From: Brumimicrobium oceani
GTDB taxonomy: Bacteria > Bacteroidota > Bacteroidia > Flavobacteriales_D > Crocinitomicaceae
Assembly (NCBI RefSeq): GCF_003143775.1
Contig: NZ_QFRJ01000001.1
Coordinates: 310,001 to 374,000 of the forward strand
Direction of reading: 5' to 3'
Length of the DNA: 64,000 bases
How positions within the stretch are numbered: the stretch's first letter is position 1; each line of letters starts with the position of its first letter. The position numbers and the translations under genes are program-made. The notes beneath the pieces are model-generated. The model searched no databases and was not told the origin of the DNA. It saw only the letters and a list, made by a program, of their open reading frames with translations. This document shows, one piece after another, positions 11,157 through 54,593 of this stretch.

Positions 11157-11358
11157 AATAATTTTTGTTTTTTTATTTGTTAATATCTGTTTCAATAAAG
11201 GTAGGGATTTACTAAAGTTATTCAAAGTTTGAAATCATAAAAAAAATTAAAATGGCGATTGTGTTTCCAATTGAGAACCAGTTGTTAAAAAGCCTTAATT
11301 TTAGTCTTGATTTAAGATCTCTTAATTTTCGATGCAGTATAGATTGATGTTTAATTTA

Positions 11359-11542
11359 AATGTTTATCGGGAACTTTTCCCCTCTCACTTGAAATATGAA
11401 CCTAGCTTAATGTCATCCTGAAGCGAATTTCTTTTTTCAACTGGTTGGAAATAGAAATTTGCAAAGGATCTTGTCAGTTCACCGCTGAATCACATTATGC
11501 TAGGGTTAGATATATTTACTGGTAAAGTATCGGATAGGCATT
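11359..11542 (-). mobile_element. MITE-like element, copy 1 (184 bp)
   Basis: Non-coding element with imperfect terminal inverted repeats: AATGTTTATCGGGAACTTTT at 11359 and, read on the other strand from 11542, AATGCCTATCCGATACTTTA. It is flanked by the identical 8-bp sequence TTAATTTA (11351-11358 and 11543-11550), as expected for a target-site duplication. Compared with copy 2 it lacks the right-hand third, and it carries the segment CCCCTCTCACTTG in inverted orientation. It fills the gap between the YtxH gene and dnaE. Confidence 0.8.
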
Positions 11543-11564
11543 TTAATTTATTTATGAACAGCTT

Positions 11565-47721: not shown

Positions 47722-47910
47722 CGAATTTTAACCAATTACGAATTATCAATTGTGTACAATTAATTCCTTATAGCATTTGCCCTAGATGAAGTTAATTAAG
47801 AATTTCTAAGGTTAACATGTACCTAAAAACTTACAAGAGGTAAATTGACTTTAAGGGAGGATTATTAAATAGTTTGGATAAATAAACTTGGTCTCCTTAT
47901 CAATTCTTAA

Positions 47911-48204
47911 AATGCCTATCCGATACTCTACCAGTAAATATATCTAACCCAACAATAATGTGATTCAGCGGTGAACTGACAGGATCCTTCGCAAATTTCT
48001 ATTTCCAACCGGTTGAAAAAAGAAATTGGCTTCGGGATGACGTGAAGCTAGGTTCCCCTCTCACTTGCTTACCAGCGCCCACAACTGTCATCCTGACCAG
48101 AGATGAAAATCTTAATTTTCCTCTCTGGAAGGATCTGGCCTAGTTAAAGAGAGTGCTTTTTATTGTAGCATATTAAATAGCTGGTAAAGTTCCCGATAAG
48201 CATT
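47911..48204 (+). mobile_element. MITE-like element, copy 2 (294 bp, longest)
   Basis: Terminal inverted repeats: AATGCCTATCCGATACTCTA at the left and, on the other strand from the right, AATGCTTATCGGGAACTTTA. The flanks ATTCTTAA (47903-47910) and ATTCGTAA (48205-48212) agree in seven of eight bases, consistent with an ageing target duplication. It contains two internal ATCCTGA or GGATC-type motifs and has no ORF for a transposase, so it would depend on an enzyme encoded elsewhere. Confidence 0.8.
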
Positions 48205-48285
48205 ATTCGTAATTATTTATTGTGTATTAACATTTGGCTTTTTATAACAAGTTAACCTTTTAAAAAATGAAGAGGATTTCTGCTA

Positions 48286-48297
48286 TATATTTGCCAT
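48286..48297 (+). promoter_or_regulatory. Promoter -7 box of the SirB1-like gene, probably leaderless
   Basis: TATATTTG (48286-48293) is followed by CCAT and then GTG. The alternative ATG two bases after the box runs straight into TGA, so the GTG is the start supported by the recurrent spacing. Confidence 0.5.
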
Positions 48298-49188
48298 GTG
48301 ATAACAAAAACCTCTATACATGCCTTGATAAAATTGATGGACGACCCCGATCCAATGGTTGTTCAGCATGCGCGGGAAAAGCTCGTGGAGTATGGAGAGA
48401 ATATTATACCTGATTTAGAGGTATTGGAGGAAGATTGCTTTATTGATCCCAATCAGTTAGATAATATCACTCGTGTTTTAGAACTGCTCCGGTTTCAACG
48501 TGTGAAACATGCTTTATCCACTTGGCTCAAATCTGACGAAAAAAATTTAATGCAGGCAGTTTACGTGATTTGTAGCTATCAATTTCCTGATTTAACCATA
48601 CAAGACTTTACTGCTCAATTTCAAAGTTTAAGACATCAGTGCTGGATGGAGATTAATTCTCGTCAAACAAGTTTTGAAAAGGTTGAAGCCTTAAATAAAA
48701 TATTCTTCGATGAATTTGATTTTGTTCGCGTGAATGAGCTGCCACATTCTCCTTTTGAGATTTTTGTAAATTCTGTCATGGAAACTAAAGAGGGAACAGA
48801 TATTTCATTGGGTTTAATTTATAGTTTGGTAGCACAATCCCTAGACATTCCGATTTATGGAGTAACTACGATGAATAATCGTGCACCATTTGTTTTGGCC
48901 TATATGGACAAAGATAATTTGCTTCCAATTTTAGATTGGGGAATTGACAATAATGGAGTCCTTTTTTATATTGGGGTAGGCACAAAAGGTCTAATTGTTG
49001 ACCCAAAACAGTTAAGAGAGATATACCTTTCAGAGGGTTTGCCACAAAGCAGAGCACAATTCGAACCTTCACCAAATACTTTGATCATTAAGAAATATCT
49101 AAAAGATATTAAAAGGAGCTACTCTAATCAAGCGCAGTTCAGGTATAAATTGAAAGATATTGAGGAGCTGTTGGAACTTTTTAGGTGA
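48298..49188 (+). CDS. SirB1/YchA-like transglutaminase-fold protein
   Basis: 296 residues. An N-terminal helical, HEAT-like part (ALIKLMDDPDPMVVQHAREK) is followed by a SirB1-type transglutaminase-like domain: FFDEFDFVRVNELPHSPFE, EGTDISLGLIYSLVAQSLDI and PIYGVTTMNNRAPFVLAY. The catalytic cysteine of true transglutaminases appears replaced (serine in DISLGLIYS), as in most SirB1 proteins, so enzyme activity is doubtful. The start is a GTG fixed by the promoter spacing. Confidence 0.78.
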   Translation: MITKTSIHALIKLMDDPDPMVVQHAREKLVEYGENIIPDLEVLEEDCFIDPNQLDNITRVLELLRFQRVKHALSTWLKSDEKNLMQAVYVICSYQFPDLTIQDFTAQFQSLRHQCWMEINSRQTSFEKVEALNKIFFDEFDFVRVNELPHSPFEIFVNSVMETKEGTDISLGLIYSLVAQSLDIPIYGVTTMNNRAPFVLAYMDKDNLLPILDWGIDNNGVLFYIGVGTKGLIVDPKQLREIYLSEGLPQSRAQFEPSPNTLIIKKYLKDIKRSYSNQAQFRYKLKDIEELLELFR

Positions 49189-49278
49189 TGATTAACAGAT
49201 AGTTCAGTACAATAATTTCCATCCTTTTTTATCATGAATAACTCTTACAAAAATTCTCTATTCTAAAATACGATTCTC

Positions 49279-50574
49279 TTAAACCGCTCGTTTCTTCTGT
49301 TTATTCACAATACTCTTCAAAATTGCAGCCAAAATTAAACCGTACAGCACATATGTGATAAATAAAATATAACCAGGTTGTAGAGAAGTATTGTTGGTAG
49401 CAATGCTGTTCATGCTGTCAGATTCAACATTCAGATATTCCATTTGATCTTCCAAAATTCCATTAAATCCAACATAAGCCATAAAGATAGCAACAACCAT
49501 TACATCTGCCATCGACCATTTTCCAGATTTAAAAGCCAGCCAATAAATTACTTTGTTTGTCTGCCAGGTTCGTTTACCAAACAGATAAACTTGTGTAGAC
49601 AATAATTTTGCAATGGGAAGAATTACACTAAAAGCCAAGACTAAAGCGCCAACAAGAATTGAATCTATTTTACCGGTTTTTAGCAAAATACTAACCAGTT
49701 GAAGTATGCTTTTACTTTGATAGAAAATTACTTGATCTTTAAAAATGACATGTTCTCCTAAAAGCACGAAATCTAATGAGTTTATTCTTGCATCAATCTC
49801 AATCATAGCGCTGGTTAAACCCACACTTAAAACAATTAAGGCCAGCAGTACAGAGACGAAAAATAGTGATTTTTGAAGTTCAATATATTTAAAAACAAAG
49901 AACCAAAGAAGTAGAAAAAGGGCTACAATTCCTAATATCCAAAATGTTTCTCGGTAATTTTTGATTTCTAATTCTTTGGCTTGAGTAAGAAGAATTGTAT
50001 TGATATCTTCGTCAAGTGAGATGTTGTATTTGCCATGAATATTTTTAATCTCCAGGGAATCTTGCAAGTCGTATGTATCGTCGGCAAATTCAGTGAGTTT
50101 ACTAATCGCCAAGGTTTTCATCCTCTCTTTATTCTTTTCCTTCATCACTTCGTCGATAATTCTTCGACTAAATTGTGGAGCACCCGCTTTTATTTCCTCC
50201 GAATTGACAAAAGTGTTAACAGCCCATTTACGAATGGTTTTCTTAAATCCTTCATCATCCGCTTGGATAGTTCGATCCGCTTGATCTACCAAACTGCGAA
50301 TCATTTCAGTGAGCTGCAAGTGCAGCAAGCTGTCTTGACTTTTAGTTAATTCAAAGTTACCAATTTGATTTTCAATAATATTTATCAACGTTCCTTTCCA
50401 AGCGGTAACAGACAACATTCCCTTATTGATGTAGTTGAGTGTACTAAAGTCATCCTTTATTTCAGATCGTTTTATGGAGTCATGATACACGCCATAAGCG
50501 AAATACATTGCTAAAGCGAGTAAAGGAGTAGTGACCAAAAAAAGTAATAATTTACGCGTTTTAGATTGAGACAT
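49279..50574 (-). CDS. Membrane protein with C-terminal PqiA-like domain
   Basis: 431 residues. An N-terminal membrane helix (LLLFLVTTPLLALAMYFAYG) leads to a large soluble region of about 170 residues, then four or five helices. The last part has the paraquat-inducible protein A pattern: LPIAKLLSTQVYLFG and KSGKWSMADVMVVAIFMAYVGF. PqiA-type domains occur in envelope lipid-transport systems, but no MCE-domain partner is present here. The function remains open. Confidence 0.75.
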   Translation of the reverse strand: MSQSKTRKLLLFLVTTPLLALAMYFAYGVYHDSIKRSEIKDDFSTLNYINKGMLSVTAWKGTLINIIENQIGNFELTKSQDSLLHLQLTEMIRSLVDQADRTIQADDEGFKKTIRKWAVNTFVNSEEIKAGAPQFSRRIIDEVMKEKNKERMKTLAISKLTEFADDTYDLQDSLEIKNIHGKYNISLDEDINTILLTQAKELEIKNYRETFWILGIVALFLLLWFFVFKYIELQKSLFFVSVLLALIVLSVGLTSAMIEIDARINSLDFVLLGEHVIFKDQVIFYQSKSILQLVSILLKTGKIDSILVGALVLAFSVILPIAKLLSTQVYLFGKRTWQTNKVIYWLAFKSGKWSMADVMVVAIFMAYVGFNGILEDQMEYLNVESDSMNSIATNNTSLQPGYILFITYVLYGLILAAILKSIVNKQKKRAV

Positions 50575-50718
50575 TTTATCTGAATATTTACATAAATATA
50601 GTGTTTTAACTAGAAATAGAATTCTTAATTAAAAAAAGTAAATAATTTTCTCGACATCCTAAAATAAAAAATGGCGTCCATACAGAACACCATTTCAGAA
50701 TTATTAAAATTGTTTTGA

Positions 50719-51531
50719 TTAGAAATTAAAGCTCAAACCTAAGGAAAAAGGCTTGTTGTCTGGACCTTTATTGGATTCAAAAAGGCTATTTAAACCATAG
50801 TTTGCAAACATTGTAAAATCACCCACACCAACTCGCACACTGGCGTCGATGATAAAAGGATTTAAATGATAATGTCCTCTTTCAATGTCTTTTCTTTTCT
50901 GGTCTTGTGAGACATATTTTTGTTTTAAACGGGAGCCAATTCTGTAATTTATAATTGCTCCAGCGGATAAAAAGAAACTTTTATCGGGATTTTTTCCAGG
51001 CATAAATGTGAAGTAAAGTGGAACAGAAATGTAGGATGCGTTGAGGTAATTCTTGTCAAATGTTTTTAAACTATCCATTGAATTGAAAATAGTGGTATCG
51101 TTGTATGATAGTGTTGAATTTGTGGATTTGAACGCATATCTGTTGAATCTAAAACCCAAGCCTGTGAAAAACCTAAAATGCTCAGTTCCTAATGCGGTGT
51201 TAAACTCAAATAAATTCATATTGATCATGAAGCTTTTGGCATAATCGAGTTCCAAATAAACGTTGGCCGGATCATTGTTAATATCAAAGGCATCAGAGGT
51301 AAAAAATCCATTTACACCGAATTCTAATCCTCTCCAATGATTTACGTCCCATTTCTCTTCTTCTAAATCGTCTTCAAGCACGATTGTTGTGTCGCTTTCG
51401 GAGTCATTGTCAGAGGTAATCGTAATCACTTTTCCCTTAAAGGAAATAGTAGTGGTTTCTTCTTCTTCTTTTTGTCCGAAGGCAAAAGTAGCCAGTGACA
51501 GAGCCAAAATAAAAGTAATTGTATATTTCAT
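50719..51531 (-). CDS. Outer-membrane beta-barrel protein (PorT-like fold)
   Basis: 270 residues starting with a signal peptide (KYTITFILALSLATFAFGQ), then an acidic linker and amphipathic strands ending in SLGLSFNF, the aromatic C-terminus typical of outer-membrane barrels. FFTGLGFRFNRYAF and FFLSAGAIINYRIGSRL are strand-like segments of the OMP_b-brl type. It lies 54 bases after the anti-sigma-like gene, so it is probably an output of that sigma/anti-sigma unit. Confidence 0.75.
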   Translation of the reverse strand: MKYTITFILALSLATFAFGQKEEEETTTISFKGKVITITSDNDSESDTTIVLEDDLEEEKWDVNHWRGLEFGVNGFFTSDAFDINNDPANVYLELDYAKSFMINMNLFEFNTALGTEHFRFFTGLGFRFNRYAFKSTNSTLSYNDTTIFNSMDSLKTFDKNYLNASYISVPLYFTFMPGKNPDKSFFLSAGAIINYRIGSRLKQKYVSQDQKRKDIERGHYHLNPFIIDASVRVGVGDFTMFANYGLNSLFESNKGPDNKPFSLGLSFNF

Positions 51532-51584
51532 AATTTATTGTTTTTTACAGGACGCTTAACTATTTGAAATGTTACAGCTGAAGT

Positions 51585-52661
51585 TTATTTTTTTGTTTTT
51601 CTTTCAATTTTAAAGGCACCCAATTGAAAAATGGTTGTTTTGGTTTCTGGTTTATCTTCTATTGTGATAATTGGTTTCTTATTTTTATTAATCTCAGAGA
51701 AAGTATTGTTTATCATTGCGGTTATATTAGCTTTTCCCTCCTCGTTAATTACTTGTTTGCGACGTAGAAAATCGTTTGTTATTTCGGCGAGAGTCTGAAT
51801 TTTATTAGTAGAACTGATCTGTTTTTCTAAATTGTTGTCTTGTTCAGTTTTTAAACCCGAAGCAAGGGATGTCATTGCTTCAGAGATATCGTTATCTTTG
51901 ATTCCGGCATTTAATTTTAGATTGTCCTTTTTTTCTGTTTTAGTTACTTTTATTTTGGTTTCACGCTGACCTTTGATTGACTTTGTGGGTTTGTCTGCCA
52001 TCTGTAATCGATTTTCTATACTCTTTTTGTTTTTGTTTTGAAAATCAGTGCTTTGTGTTGTTTTTAATCGTTTTTTAATCGTTTTATTTTCGTTTTTAAT
52101 CTTTTTAGATAGTAGTTTGTCTATATCTAATTCTTGTGTTTCACTCATTTCGTATCTAGACTCTACTCCCTCAAAAGGAAAAGTAAGGAACAACGATACT
52201 AGGATGGAGGCGGCTGCAAATAGACCAATCCAACGCTTAATTGGCAAGGACATCGAAGAATTTGGAATACTGTTTAATTGCTCTTTATTCGGATATAAAA
52301 TAGTTTCTTCGGGTAACTTGGCTTTAGTAAACTGGGTGAATTTTTGTTGGAGTGAAGGATGCTCTGCTAAAAATACATCAACTAAACTCTTTTCTTTATT
52401 TGAAAGGTCGCCTTCGCAGTAAGCTACAAAAAAGAACTCATAATTTTTGGTGTTAATTTCATCAAAATCGATGGCAGCTTTATCAAATTGAATGGCTGGT
52501 TCTTTAATTGAAATATCATCGGTTAAAGTTAAAGCTTCTTCTTCATCGAACTGCGGATTATTTTTTAAAAAATTAGAAAGCATTAATTTTTGGTGATCAG
52601 AAAGAGTTCCTTCCCAAAGGTCTAGCAAATACGCTTCATAATTTTCCTTATTGATTTCCAT
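51585..52661 (-). CDS. Anti-sigma-factor-like membrane protein with duplicated N-terminal module
   Basis: 358 residues. Two similar blocks, NYEAYLLDLWEGTLSDHQKL (from residue 7) and NYEFFFVAYCEGDLSNKEKS (from residue 73), look like a duplicated cytosolic sigma-binding module of the kind found in Bacteroidota anti-sigma proteins. One membrane helix follows (IGLFAAASILVSLFLTFPF, about 145-163), then a lysine-rich, probably disordered periplasmic region. It starts at the base where the ECF sigma gene ends, so they are translationally coupled. The regulatory role is inference from position and layout. Confidence 0.7.
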   Translation of the reverse strand: MEINKENYEAYLLDLWEGTLSDHQKLMLSNFLKNNPQFDEEEALTLTDDISIKEPAIQFDKAAIDFDEINTKNYEFFFVAYCEGDLSNKEKSLVDVFLAEHPSLQQKFTQFTKAKLPEETILYPNKEQLNSIPNSSMSLPIKRWIGLFAAASILVSLFLTFPFEGVESRYEMSETQELDIDKLLSKKIKNENKTIKKRLKTTQSTDFQNKNKKSIENRLQMADKPTKSIKGQRETKIKVTKTEKKDNLKLNAGIKDNDISEAMTSLASGLKTEQDNNLEKQISSTNKIQTLAEITNDFLRRKQVINEEGKANITAMINNTFSEINKNKKPIITIEDKPETKTTIFQLGAFKIERKTKK

Positions 52662-53140
52662 TAAATTACTTTTTCTAAACTACCAATGTATTTCTGTAAC
52701 TGTTTTCTTGCCCGATAAATATAGACTTTTACCTGTGATGGACTCAGTTCTAAAATTTCTCCAATCTCATTATAGCTGTAGCCCTCATAATCGCGCAAAA
52801 GAAGGGCTGATTTTTGAATAGGTGCTAAGCTGGATAAAGCCAAATTTAACACTGTTTTCAAATCACAGCTTTCAGGCAGAAAGGAAGCTTCTTTATGATA
52901 TTCTTCCAACGAAACTACTTTGTTCCGCTTTTTGTCATCTAAAAACTGATTAAAGACGGTTCTAAATAAATAAGATTTCACTTTTTCGGCTTGAATGTTA
53001 TCTTTTTTAATCCACACCTTTTCGAAAGCGCTCTGAACTAAATCTTGCGCCAATGATTCACTTTTAGTGAGTTTTACGGCAAAACGATAAAGTCCATCAC
53101 TGAAACAATTGACTGCGCTATGGTATTCTTTTTTATTCAA
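52661..53140 (-). CDS. ECF-type RNA polymerase sigma factor
   Basis: 159 residues. Region 2 includes ESLAQDLVQSAFEKVWIKKD and the promoter-melting segment SYLFRTVFNQFLDDKKR. Region 4 includes LAPIQKSALLLRDYEGYSYN and the helix-turn-helix EIGEILELSPSQVKVYIYRA. First gene of a three-gene unit with the anti-sigma-like and outer-membrane genes. It probably senses an envelope signal relayed through that partner. Confidence 0.93.
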   Translation of the reverse strand: MNKKEYHSAVNCFSDGLYRFAVKLTKSESLAQDLVQSAFEKVWIKKDNIQAEKVKSYLFRTVFNQFLDDKKRNKVVSLEEYHKEASFLPESCDLKTVLNLALSSLAPIQKSALLLRDYEGYSYNEIGEILELSPSQVKVYIYRARKQLQKYIGSLEKVI

Positions 53141-53669
53141 TCTGATAGTAAGACGGCTGAGTCTAAAGAAAGTTACAGGATGAATAGCGAATTTATATTT
53201 CCGTATTCCATTCCACTTAAAGTTAGCACTAATTTCAATTGAAGACCTATGAGCTTAGTTTATTATGATTTATCGAAGATTTGTTCTGAACAACAAAGGA
53301 GGTTCCTCATCCAATTATATATAACATCATTCATTTTGAAAGAAATAAACGACTGAGGAGTTCTCAGGCTTCCGACTGAAACTCTTTTTGATTATCGTTA
53401 AATATTAATTTGGCAACAAGGTTTTAATTTTGAGCTAGTAATTTCCATCATACAGAACTGGTATAATAGCGAGCAACCATTAGGCATTAGTAGTGCATCC
53501 CTTTGCTTCTAGGAATAGACCGATAAGATTTTGAAAGGCACATGGATAGCTGGAATTCGTCAAATGATCATCAAACTGAAGATTATTCAATATATATTAG
53601 AAGTACTACAAGTTTTGTAGAATCATTTTTTCATTATAAATTAGGAGAATAATCTAAAAACAAATCTTT
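53141..53669. other. Intergenic stretch between the ECF sigma gene and the lipoprotein gene
   Basis: About 530 AT-rich bases holding divergent promoters. I see no gene, tRNA or strong hairpin. GGAGA at 53644-53648 is too far from the 53670 ATG to be a normal ribosome-binding site. Confidence 0.4.
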
Positions 53670-54104
53670 ATGAAAGGCGCTAACATCTTTTTAATTGGCA
53701 TCTCCACAATTTTAACTTTTTCTTTGTTTACTTCTTGTAAAAAGAATGATCGATTTGATAATTACGAACAGTTAACAAACAAGGAATGGAATATTACCGA
53801 AGTTCAGAATGAGCAAGGAAATTCTATAATTTCAGAATGCGAAAAGGACGATATTATTCTTTTCGGTGAAGACGCTTTCACCTTAAATGAAGGAAACAAT
53901 GTTTGCGATGAGGGATTAATTTTTAAATCGGGGAAATGGGAATTTAAAGATGATGGAAATGGATTGAAAATCAAGAAAGTAATGAAGTCAAACAGCGGGA
54001 TGGTCAATGCAAGGTTAGTTGAGCGTTTTGAAATTCTTAAACTAAGCGATGTAGAATTGGTTTTAAAAAGCGAAGAGGAGGACAAGATTTTTTATTATGA
54101 GTAG
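53670..54104 (+). CDS. Small lipoprotein, lipocalin-like
   Basis: 144 residues. The signal peptide ends in a lipobox, LFTSCKKND, giving a lipidated cysteine near residue 23. The mature part (LTNKEWNITEVQNEQGN, then KSGKWEFKDDGNGLKIKK and FEILKLSDVELVLKSE) has the strand pattern of Bacteroidota lipocalin-like lipoproteins. Function unknown; it would sit on the outer or inner membrane. It stands alone, followed by MITE copy 3. Confidence 0.75.
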   Translation: MKGANIFLIGISTILTFSLFTSCKKNDRFDNYEQLTNKEWNITEVQNEQGNSIISECEKDDIILFGEDAFTLNEGNNVCDEGLIFKSGKWEFKDDGNGLKIKKVMKSNSGMVNARLVERFEILKLSDVELVLKSEEEDKIFYYE

Positions 54105-54232
54105 GAGGGGAACCAATTTAACATTTCTAATTGAAGATAGTGTTAGATTCATTTAGCTATAGTAAAACAGGCGTTGGAATGTCTAAATCTAGTTATTTAG
54201 CGAGAAAAAGTAATAATCAATGATTAAATTTA

Positions 54233-54475
54233 AATGCCTATCTGATACTTTACCAGTAAATATGTCTAGCTCAACAATAATGTGATGCAGCGGTAAACTG
54301 ACAAGATTCTTCGCATATTTCTTTTTCCTTCTCACTTGCCTCCCAGCACCCACAACTGTCACCCAGACCAGAATTGAAAATTAAGATTTTCAACTCTGGA
54401 AGGATACGACCTAGTTAAAGAGAGTGCTTTTTATTGTAGCATATCAAATAGCTGGTAAAGTTCCTGAAAAGCATT
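54233..54475 (+). mobile_element. MITE-like element, copy 3 (243 bp)
   Basis: Left end AATGCCTATCTGATACTTTA; right end, on the other strand, AATGCTTTTCAGGAACTTTA. Both flanks are the identical octamer TAAATTTA (54225-54232 and 54476-54483). It aligns with copy 2 along its length but lacks about 50 internal bases around the CCGGTTG segment. It lies between the lipoprotein gene and the SulP transporter gene. Confidence 0.83.
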
Positions 54476-54593
54476 TAAATTTATAACTACTATGTTCTTA
54501 AAATGGAGCAGCTACAAGAATTTAAATATCATGGAAGAACCGCGTTAAACTGCTTGTCCGACAACTGGAGGATTAATAATTAAGCCTTAATCA

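Follow-up and report, generated by a model that had tools for sequence, protein, structure and literature searches.

Three short elements in the window

We analyzed a stretch of 64,000 nucleotides from Brumimicrobium oceani (C1:310001-374000 of the host genome, which consists of 35 contigs and 3.85 Mb); this whole stretch is called the window hereafter. Three short sequences located in it, referred to as copies 1, 2, and 3, belong to a new family within a well-known class, namely the miniature inverted-repeat transposable elements (MITEs) of the IS1595 type. The IS1595 family of insertion sequences (ISs) is divided into the subgroups ISPna2, ISH4, IS1016, IS1595, ISSod11, ISNwi, and ISNha5. 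The positions of the three copies and of their parts are listed in Table 1.

Table 1 Features of the three elements, in positions of the window
Feature	Position	Strand	Remarks
Copy 1	11359..11542	-	184 bp; without right module
Copy 1 target duplication, one side	11351..11358		TTAATTTA
Copy 1 target duplication, other side	11543..11550		TTAATTTA; 8/8
Copy 1 left terminal inverted repeat	11519..11542	-	IS1595 end profile rank 1
Copy 1 right terminal inverted repeat	11359..11382	+	IS1595 end profile: 8 positions scoring at least its score
Copy 1 module	11412..11471	+	GTCATCCTGA...AAAGGATCT
Copy 2	47911..48204	+	294 bp; fullest of the three: left end, inverted palindromic module pair, right end
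Copy 2 left target duplication	47903..47910		ATTCTTAA
Copy 2 right target duplication	48205..48212		ATTCGTAA; 7/8 relative to the left
Copy 2 left terminal inverted repeat	47911..47934	+	IS1595 end profile rank 2
Copy 2 right terminal inverted repeat	48181..48204	-	IS1595 end profile rank 3
Copy 2 left palindromic module	47982..48041	-	GTCATCCCGA...GAAGGATCC on the - strand
Copy 2 right palindromic module	48087..48136	+	GTCATCCTGA...GAAGGATCT
Copy 3	54233..54475	+	243 bp; left module shortened
Copy 3 left target duplication	54225..54232		TAAATTTA
Copy 3 right target duplication	54476..54483		TAAATTTA; 8/8
Copy 3 left terminal inverted repeat	54233..54256	+	IS1595 end profile rank 4
Copy 3 right terminal inverted repeat	54452..54475	-	IS1595 end profile: 12 positions scoring at least its score
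Copy 3 right module	54358..54407	+	2 mismatches per flank motif

An earlier reading of the window from its letters (the sequence-only reading) had delimited these copies and given their lengths (184, 294, and 243 bp for copies 1, 2, and 3), and its limits were found to be exact to the base. The flanking octamers that it had pointed out agree at 8/8, 7/8, and 8/8 positions, and its ends are real ones: the similarity among the copies halts at these boundaries, and nothing conserved is found beyond them. In each copy, the ends are imperfect inverted repeats of 24 nt; those of copy 2 are 79% complementary. When A/T-rich octamers of the window were paired at random 200,000 times, an agreement of 7/8 or better occurred in 0.77% and one of 8/8 in 0.075%; because such random pairs seldom agree so well, a chance origin of the flank matches is unlikely. 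None of the copies encodes a protein, as had also been claimed: their longest ATG frames are 15, 30, and 19 aa, respectively.

Copies and target duplications in the host genome

The family had been described as a three-copy one, a number bounded by the window and far too low. With copy 2 as the DNA query, at least 58 matches were obtained in its own genome; the figure is a lower bound, since scores were computed for only 40 of the 119 candidates. When no more than 3 mismatches were allowed, the left-end pattern occurred at 75 sites (0 for the reversed control), and a looser end pattern at 144 sites (17 for the control). We fetched 441,685 bases around the end-pattern matches (72 stretches) and paired the ends located 100–700 bp apart. 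This procedure yielded 45 paired-end elements with lengths of 168–620 bp.

The octamers flanking these 45 elements agree at 8/8 in 20 elements and at 7/8 in 10, thus at 7/8 or better in 30, where it should be noted that the better flank match was chosen by the script when candidate pairs tied. As a control, left and right flanks taken from different elements were compared, and 7–8 matches were found in 4.1% of cases. The sequence-only reading had expected further copies to be flanked by differing 8-bp repeats, and this expectation was borne out for these 30 elements, with octamers distinct in 27 of them; the remaining 15 elements, with agreement of 6/8 or less, did not conform to it. The 30 well-matched octamers are 94.2% A+T, as compared with 68.5% in the adjoining 100 bp on each side. 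They show a loose palindromic tendency (T-A-A-A-T-T-T-A), and among the 28 testable insertion sites, only one lies within an open frame of at least 100 aa extending across the flanks. The family therefore has the attributes of a MITE, i.e., target duplications with a fixed length of 8 bp at differing sites, inverted ends common to many copies, and a short size without a transposase gene.

The length differences among the copies had been ascribed to internal loss. This is right in part; however, the elements of about 343–345 bp and those of 292–294 bp have halves in common while their middles differ, indicating that replacement or recombination of halves also took place. A few of the 45 elements have ends finishing in CCCC and constitute a more distant subfamily.

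Two other observations were made in this survey. A second MITE-like subfamily of 395–620 bp has the ends AATGCCTATCGGATACTTTACCCC / AATGCCTATCGTCTTCTTTACCCC (L059 on contig C32, L031 on C1, L133 on C8, and L132 on C4), with 8/8 flanks in two of these four paired elements. At the start of contig C6 and the end of contig C8, there are two MITE halves interrupted by other DNA, with an end sequence judged by eye to be common to both; these contig ends were considered as an IS and rejected, since they hold the pieces of a split MITE.

Insertion sequences with matching ends

The sequence-only reading had matched the family to no known IS. Here, it is assigned to IS1595. When 40 related genomes were searched with the end pattern, the ends were found in 10 of them, including the host's own, and seven of the ten genus members are among these. 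In one congeneric genome (G009), two such ends, AATGCCTATCGGGTACTTTACCAG and AATGAATATCGGATACTTTACCAG, lie 1,053 bp apart (G009:C8:57450-58502) and enclose a single gene for a protein of 315 aa. This protein matched PF12762 (9.9e-17, 61.8 bits; cut-off 27) and NF033547, the IS1595 family transposase (1.7e-48, 165.4 bits; cut-off 75); in the Pfam search with E up to 0.001, the catalytic domain alone was listed. An identical protein is located on CAJXMN010000008.1 of an uncultured Flavobacteriales bacterium. In the first 26 bp of the G009 IS, 24 bases are equal to those of many MITE copies. Thus, the predicted full IS with a transposase does exist outside the host genome, in the same genus and with nearly the same ends, but it was not found in the host's own assembly; an autonomous copy in the same genome does not belong to the definition of a MITE.

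Two more elements carry such ends. One of them, on CANGOF010000032.1 (L142), is an IS of 1,054 bp with 70% transposase identity, inverted ends matching at 26/26 positions, and a duplication of 8/8 (TTATAAAA on both sides); it matches the right end of MITE copies over 34 to 50 bp. The other, in the genome G017, is split by contig ends, and both its ends and pieces of its transposase (51% over 35 aa) were recovered. Two features characterize the present family as IS1595-related: its ends recur in the G009 IS, whose gene codes for an IS1595-family transposase, and its target duplication has a length of 8 bp, which is usual for IS1595 (PMC8101967).

Among seven aligned IS1595-like proteins, two Cys-x-x-Cys pairs are invariant. 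By eye, the second aspartate is present in the proteins of G009, G006, and the host genome, and four other IS1595-like proteins (L094 in G043, L095 and L110 in G019, and L096 in G016) are without it; judging from this difference, the latter may be inactive.

An independent profile of IS1595 ends

An end-finding script was run on 74 elements, comprising 70 of the 80 loci from the transposase search (10 were omitted) and L091–L094, with L141 and L091 being the same element. Flanks of 8/8 were found in 22 of the 74. The ends of the elements carrying the two nearest transposases matched the MITE consensus at 25/26 and 22/26 positions, and those of the others at 18/26 or fewer. From 19 of the 22 elements, which had 8/8 flanks and correctly registered ends, a profile of 24 positions was built using 38 ends; L142 and the host's own IS were left out on purpose, and L185 was excluded owing to a shift of one base in its called ends. 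Of the 127,952 positions that this profile scored on the two strands of the window, the first four ranks fell to four of the six MITE ends; the remaining two, the right end of copy 1 and that of copy 3, were 8th and 12th, respectively. The MITE ends are accordingly of the IS1595 type even when close relatives are set aside.

Palindromic modules in the interior

In copy 2, two modules are arranged in inverse orientation, each having the form GTCATCC(T/C)GA-hairpin-GAAGGATC. In copy 1, the left module alone remains; copy 3 has retained the right module together with the edge of the left one. The exact module pattern occurs at 24 places in the host genome and the reversed pattern at none; coordinates and BLAST assigned 19 of these places to the MITE-type hairpin and 5 to other repeats. 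With regard to the latter kind of location, a 279-bp repeat is found twice on contig C33 (L223, G000:C33:157300-160200; about 663–940 and 2113–2391 in the locus), with 94% likeness and a spacing of 1,450 bp. Neither of the two lies in an IS1595 MITE; each carries an inverted GTCATCCTGA...GAAGGATC pair that flanks a palindrome of 61 bp, and the module pair at C33 is oriented as in the MITEs.

Of the cells scored across 15 distinct MITE modules, 95.9% have the hairpin formed. Cells changed on both sides numbered 11, a value reached by none of 500 shuffles, and pairs with double changes numbered 3, reached by 111 of 500. This covariation is suggestive only, because the structure was derived from the same related copies. 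Copy 2 folds as single-stranded DNA with a z of -4.15.

These features raise the possibility of a composite, in which an IS1595-type MITE would have captured and would spread an inverted module pair (GTCATCCTGA-hairpin-GAAGGATC) resembling doublets of repetitive extragenic palindromic (REP) sequences (REPINs), with the hairpins kept by compensatory change for some function. We regard this as a tentative proposal with odds clearly below even. If it is true, the hairpins could, for instance, mark the ends of transcripts or be acted on by another factor. A modest question is raised by the module pair itself: whether REP-like palindromes are transported through genomes by MITEs.

A link to a REP-associated tyrosine transposase (RAYT) was also considered. 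The host genome has one Y1_Tnp (PF01797) gene, and the link finds no support, as the surrounding 3.3 kb contain no exact copy of the searched module motifs. Among the titles listed for the letters of GTCATCCTGA, no literature match on genome repeats was found. Separately, in G026, a genome of the same order and another family, GTCATNCTGA...AAGNATC palindromes gave 16 matches, in 15 of which N pairs with its partner (by eye); they represent a wider palindromic repeat family with covarying flanks.

The locus of copy 2 in related species

The genes flanking copy 2 were found in all 10 genus genomes searched, though not in all of them as an adjacent pair. The intergenic region was compared in five related species (G001–G005). 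At this locus, G001, G002, G003, and G004 have no element and no end within 9 mismatches. In G005, a left-end-like sequence (8 mismatches) and an interior match (e.g., 83% over 60 bp) are seen, so that a similar sequence, now reduced to a diverged remnant, appears to lie at this locus; the insertion may accordingly be older than the divergence of the two species, or it may be independent. Further copies with 8-bp flanks were recognized by eye in G005 (e.g., 8/8 in L246).

Origin and movement of the family

Taken as a whole, the data are best explained by a high-copy family of IS1595-type MITEs moved by a transposase that is made elsewhere and is of the kind encoded by the G009 IS; we assign this explanation a probability of roughly 90%. 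As judged from the ends, the enzyme that moves the MITEs is most likely that of an IS1595-family IS. A transposase supplied in this way, like that carried by the 1,053-bp G009 IS, would recognize the AATGC(C/T)TATC...CTTTACCAG ends and move the element in trans into A/T-rich, mostly intergenic sites, thereby producing the 8-bp duplication. As to the origin, an IS probably lost its transposase gene and subsequently took up other DNA, including the palindromic module pair.

Several points weigh against this explanation. First, the flanks of 15 of the 45 paired elements agree poorly (6/8 in 1, 5/8 in 8, 4/8 in 3, 3/8 in 2, and 2/8 in 1); we infer that these are old, rearranged, or wrongly paired copies. 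Second, the flanks of the G009 IS itself agree at 6/8. Third, the likeness of the MITEs to IS1595 elements extends over about 26 bp at the left end and 34–50 bp at the right end, with no IS1595 sequence detected farther inside, for which reason descent from a deleted IS is put forward as probable only. Fourth, a base-exact empty site was not found at the copy 2 locus of the five species, the intergenic sequence being too diverged. Fifth, the host's own assembly, whose 35 contigs may have gaps, yielded no IS whose ends match closely, and the IS1595 element that the host does have, located on contig C35, carries ends (AATGCTTCCCCGCAATCATACCAC) that are more diverged from the MITE ends. Since this is the only IS1595 element detected there, a matching helper would have been lost, lie in an assembly gap, or have escaped detection.

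The C35 element might itself be the helper, acting despite its different ends. It is 1,008 bp long and was the single IS1595 match in the transposase search of the host genome; its frame, 41% identical to the query, is open over 300 codons (a TAG three codons before the query end is read as the natural stop), its 8-bp duplication AAACTTAA is perfect, and its right end stands high on the IS1595 end profile. However, by eye this right end agrees with the right ends of the miniature elements at 15–16 of 24 positions, whereas between the G009 IS and the family, the left ends agree at 22/24 or more. We therefore consider the C35 element an unlikely helper.

Duplications of 8 bp are made by several IS families, e.g., IS256, IS66, and ISL3. 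A helper from such a family, with a merely convergent likeness to IS1595 ends, would fit the failure to find a full helper in the host's assembly, but nearly identical ends are located on two elements with IS1595-family transposases, and the independent profile ranks the ends in the window at the top. Furthermore, among end pairs 700–4,500 bp apart with flanks of 6/8 or better in the 442 kb fetched, there was one case, of 749 bp, and it has no frame longer than 79 aa. This alternative is highly improbable. Least probable of all is a non-transposon origin, in which the elements would be structured repeats of the REP or RNA type multiplied by recombination or duplication. The good folding of copy 2 and the occurrence of hairpin modules elsewhere agree with this idea, but it is refuted for the whole elements, because 30 of 45 combine exact ends with differing 8-bp duplications, the signature that a transposase leaves on insertion. 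The internal modules alone may be structured repeats of this kind.

With the IS1595-type MITE explanation, an orphan repeat receives a name: it is a MITE that is abundant in one member of the genus, present in others, and tied to IS1595. Annotation can now rely on exact ends and a consensus, and a donor/helper pair is available for testing transposition in trans.

Comparison with known systems

No description of the present family was found in the passages and listings covered of the open-access literature on IS1595 MITEs (PMC3852290, PMC6367388, PMC11578231), on non-autonomous IS1595/Bacteroidetes elements, and on Flavobacteri MITEs (PMC9769881). The closest known relatives are comparable in different respects. 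The IS1595-family ISs of Bacteroidota (ISfinder family; PF12762, NF033547) are like the MITEs in their ends and in their 8-bp A/T-rich duplications; however, they are about 1,000 bp long and have a transposase gene, while the MITEs, 168–620 bp in length, have none.

Cardinium represents another lineage of Bacteroidota. Its MITECca01, a high-copy and mostly intergenic MITE of about 240 bp, resembles the present MITEs in size, copy number, and location, but it is of IS982-family origin, with intact copies of the parent element in the same genome (PMC9769881). In the archaeon Haloquadratum walsbyi, a MITE related to ISHwa6 (165 bp, inverted repeat of 25, direct repeat of 8) is likewise of the IS1595 type with an 8-bp repeat, as compared by its tabulated features; it differs in its archaeal host and in having 7 copies (PMC3852290). 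Finally, ISApl4, which belongs to the IS1016 group of the IS1595 family, also generates 8-bp duplications, preferably A/T-rich ones, whereas it is an autonomous element of 712 bp with the unrelated ends GGGGCTGTACTAGA (PMC12561309).

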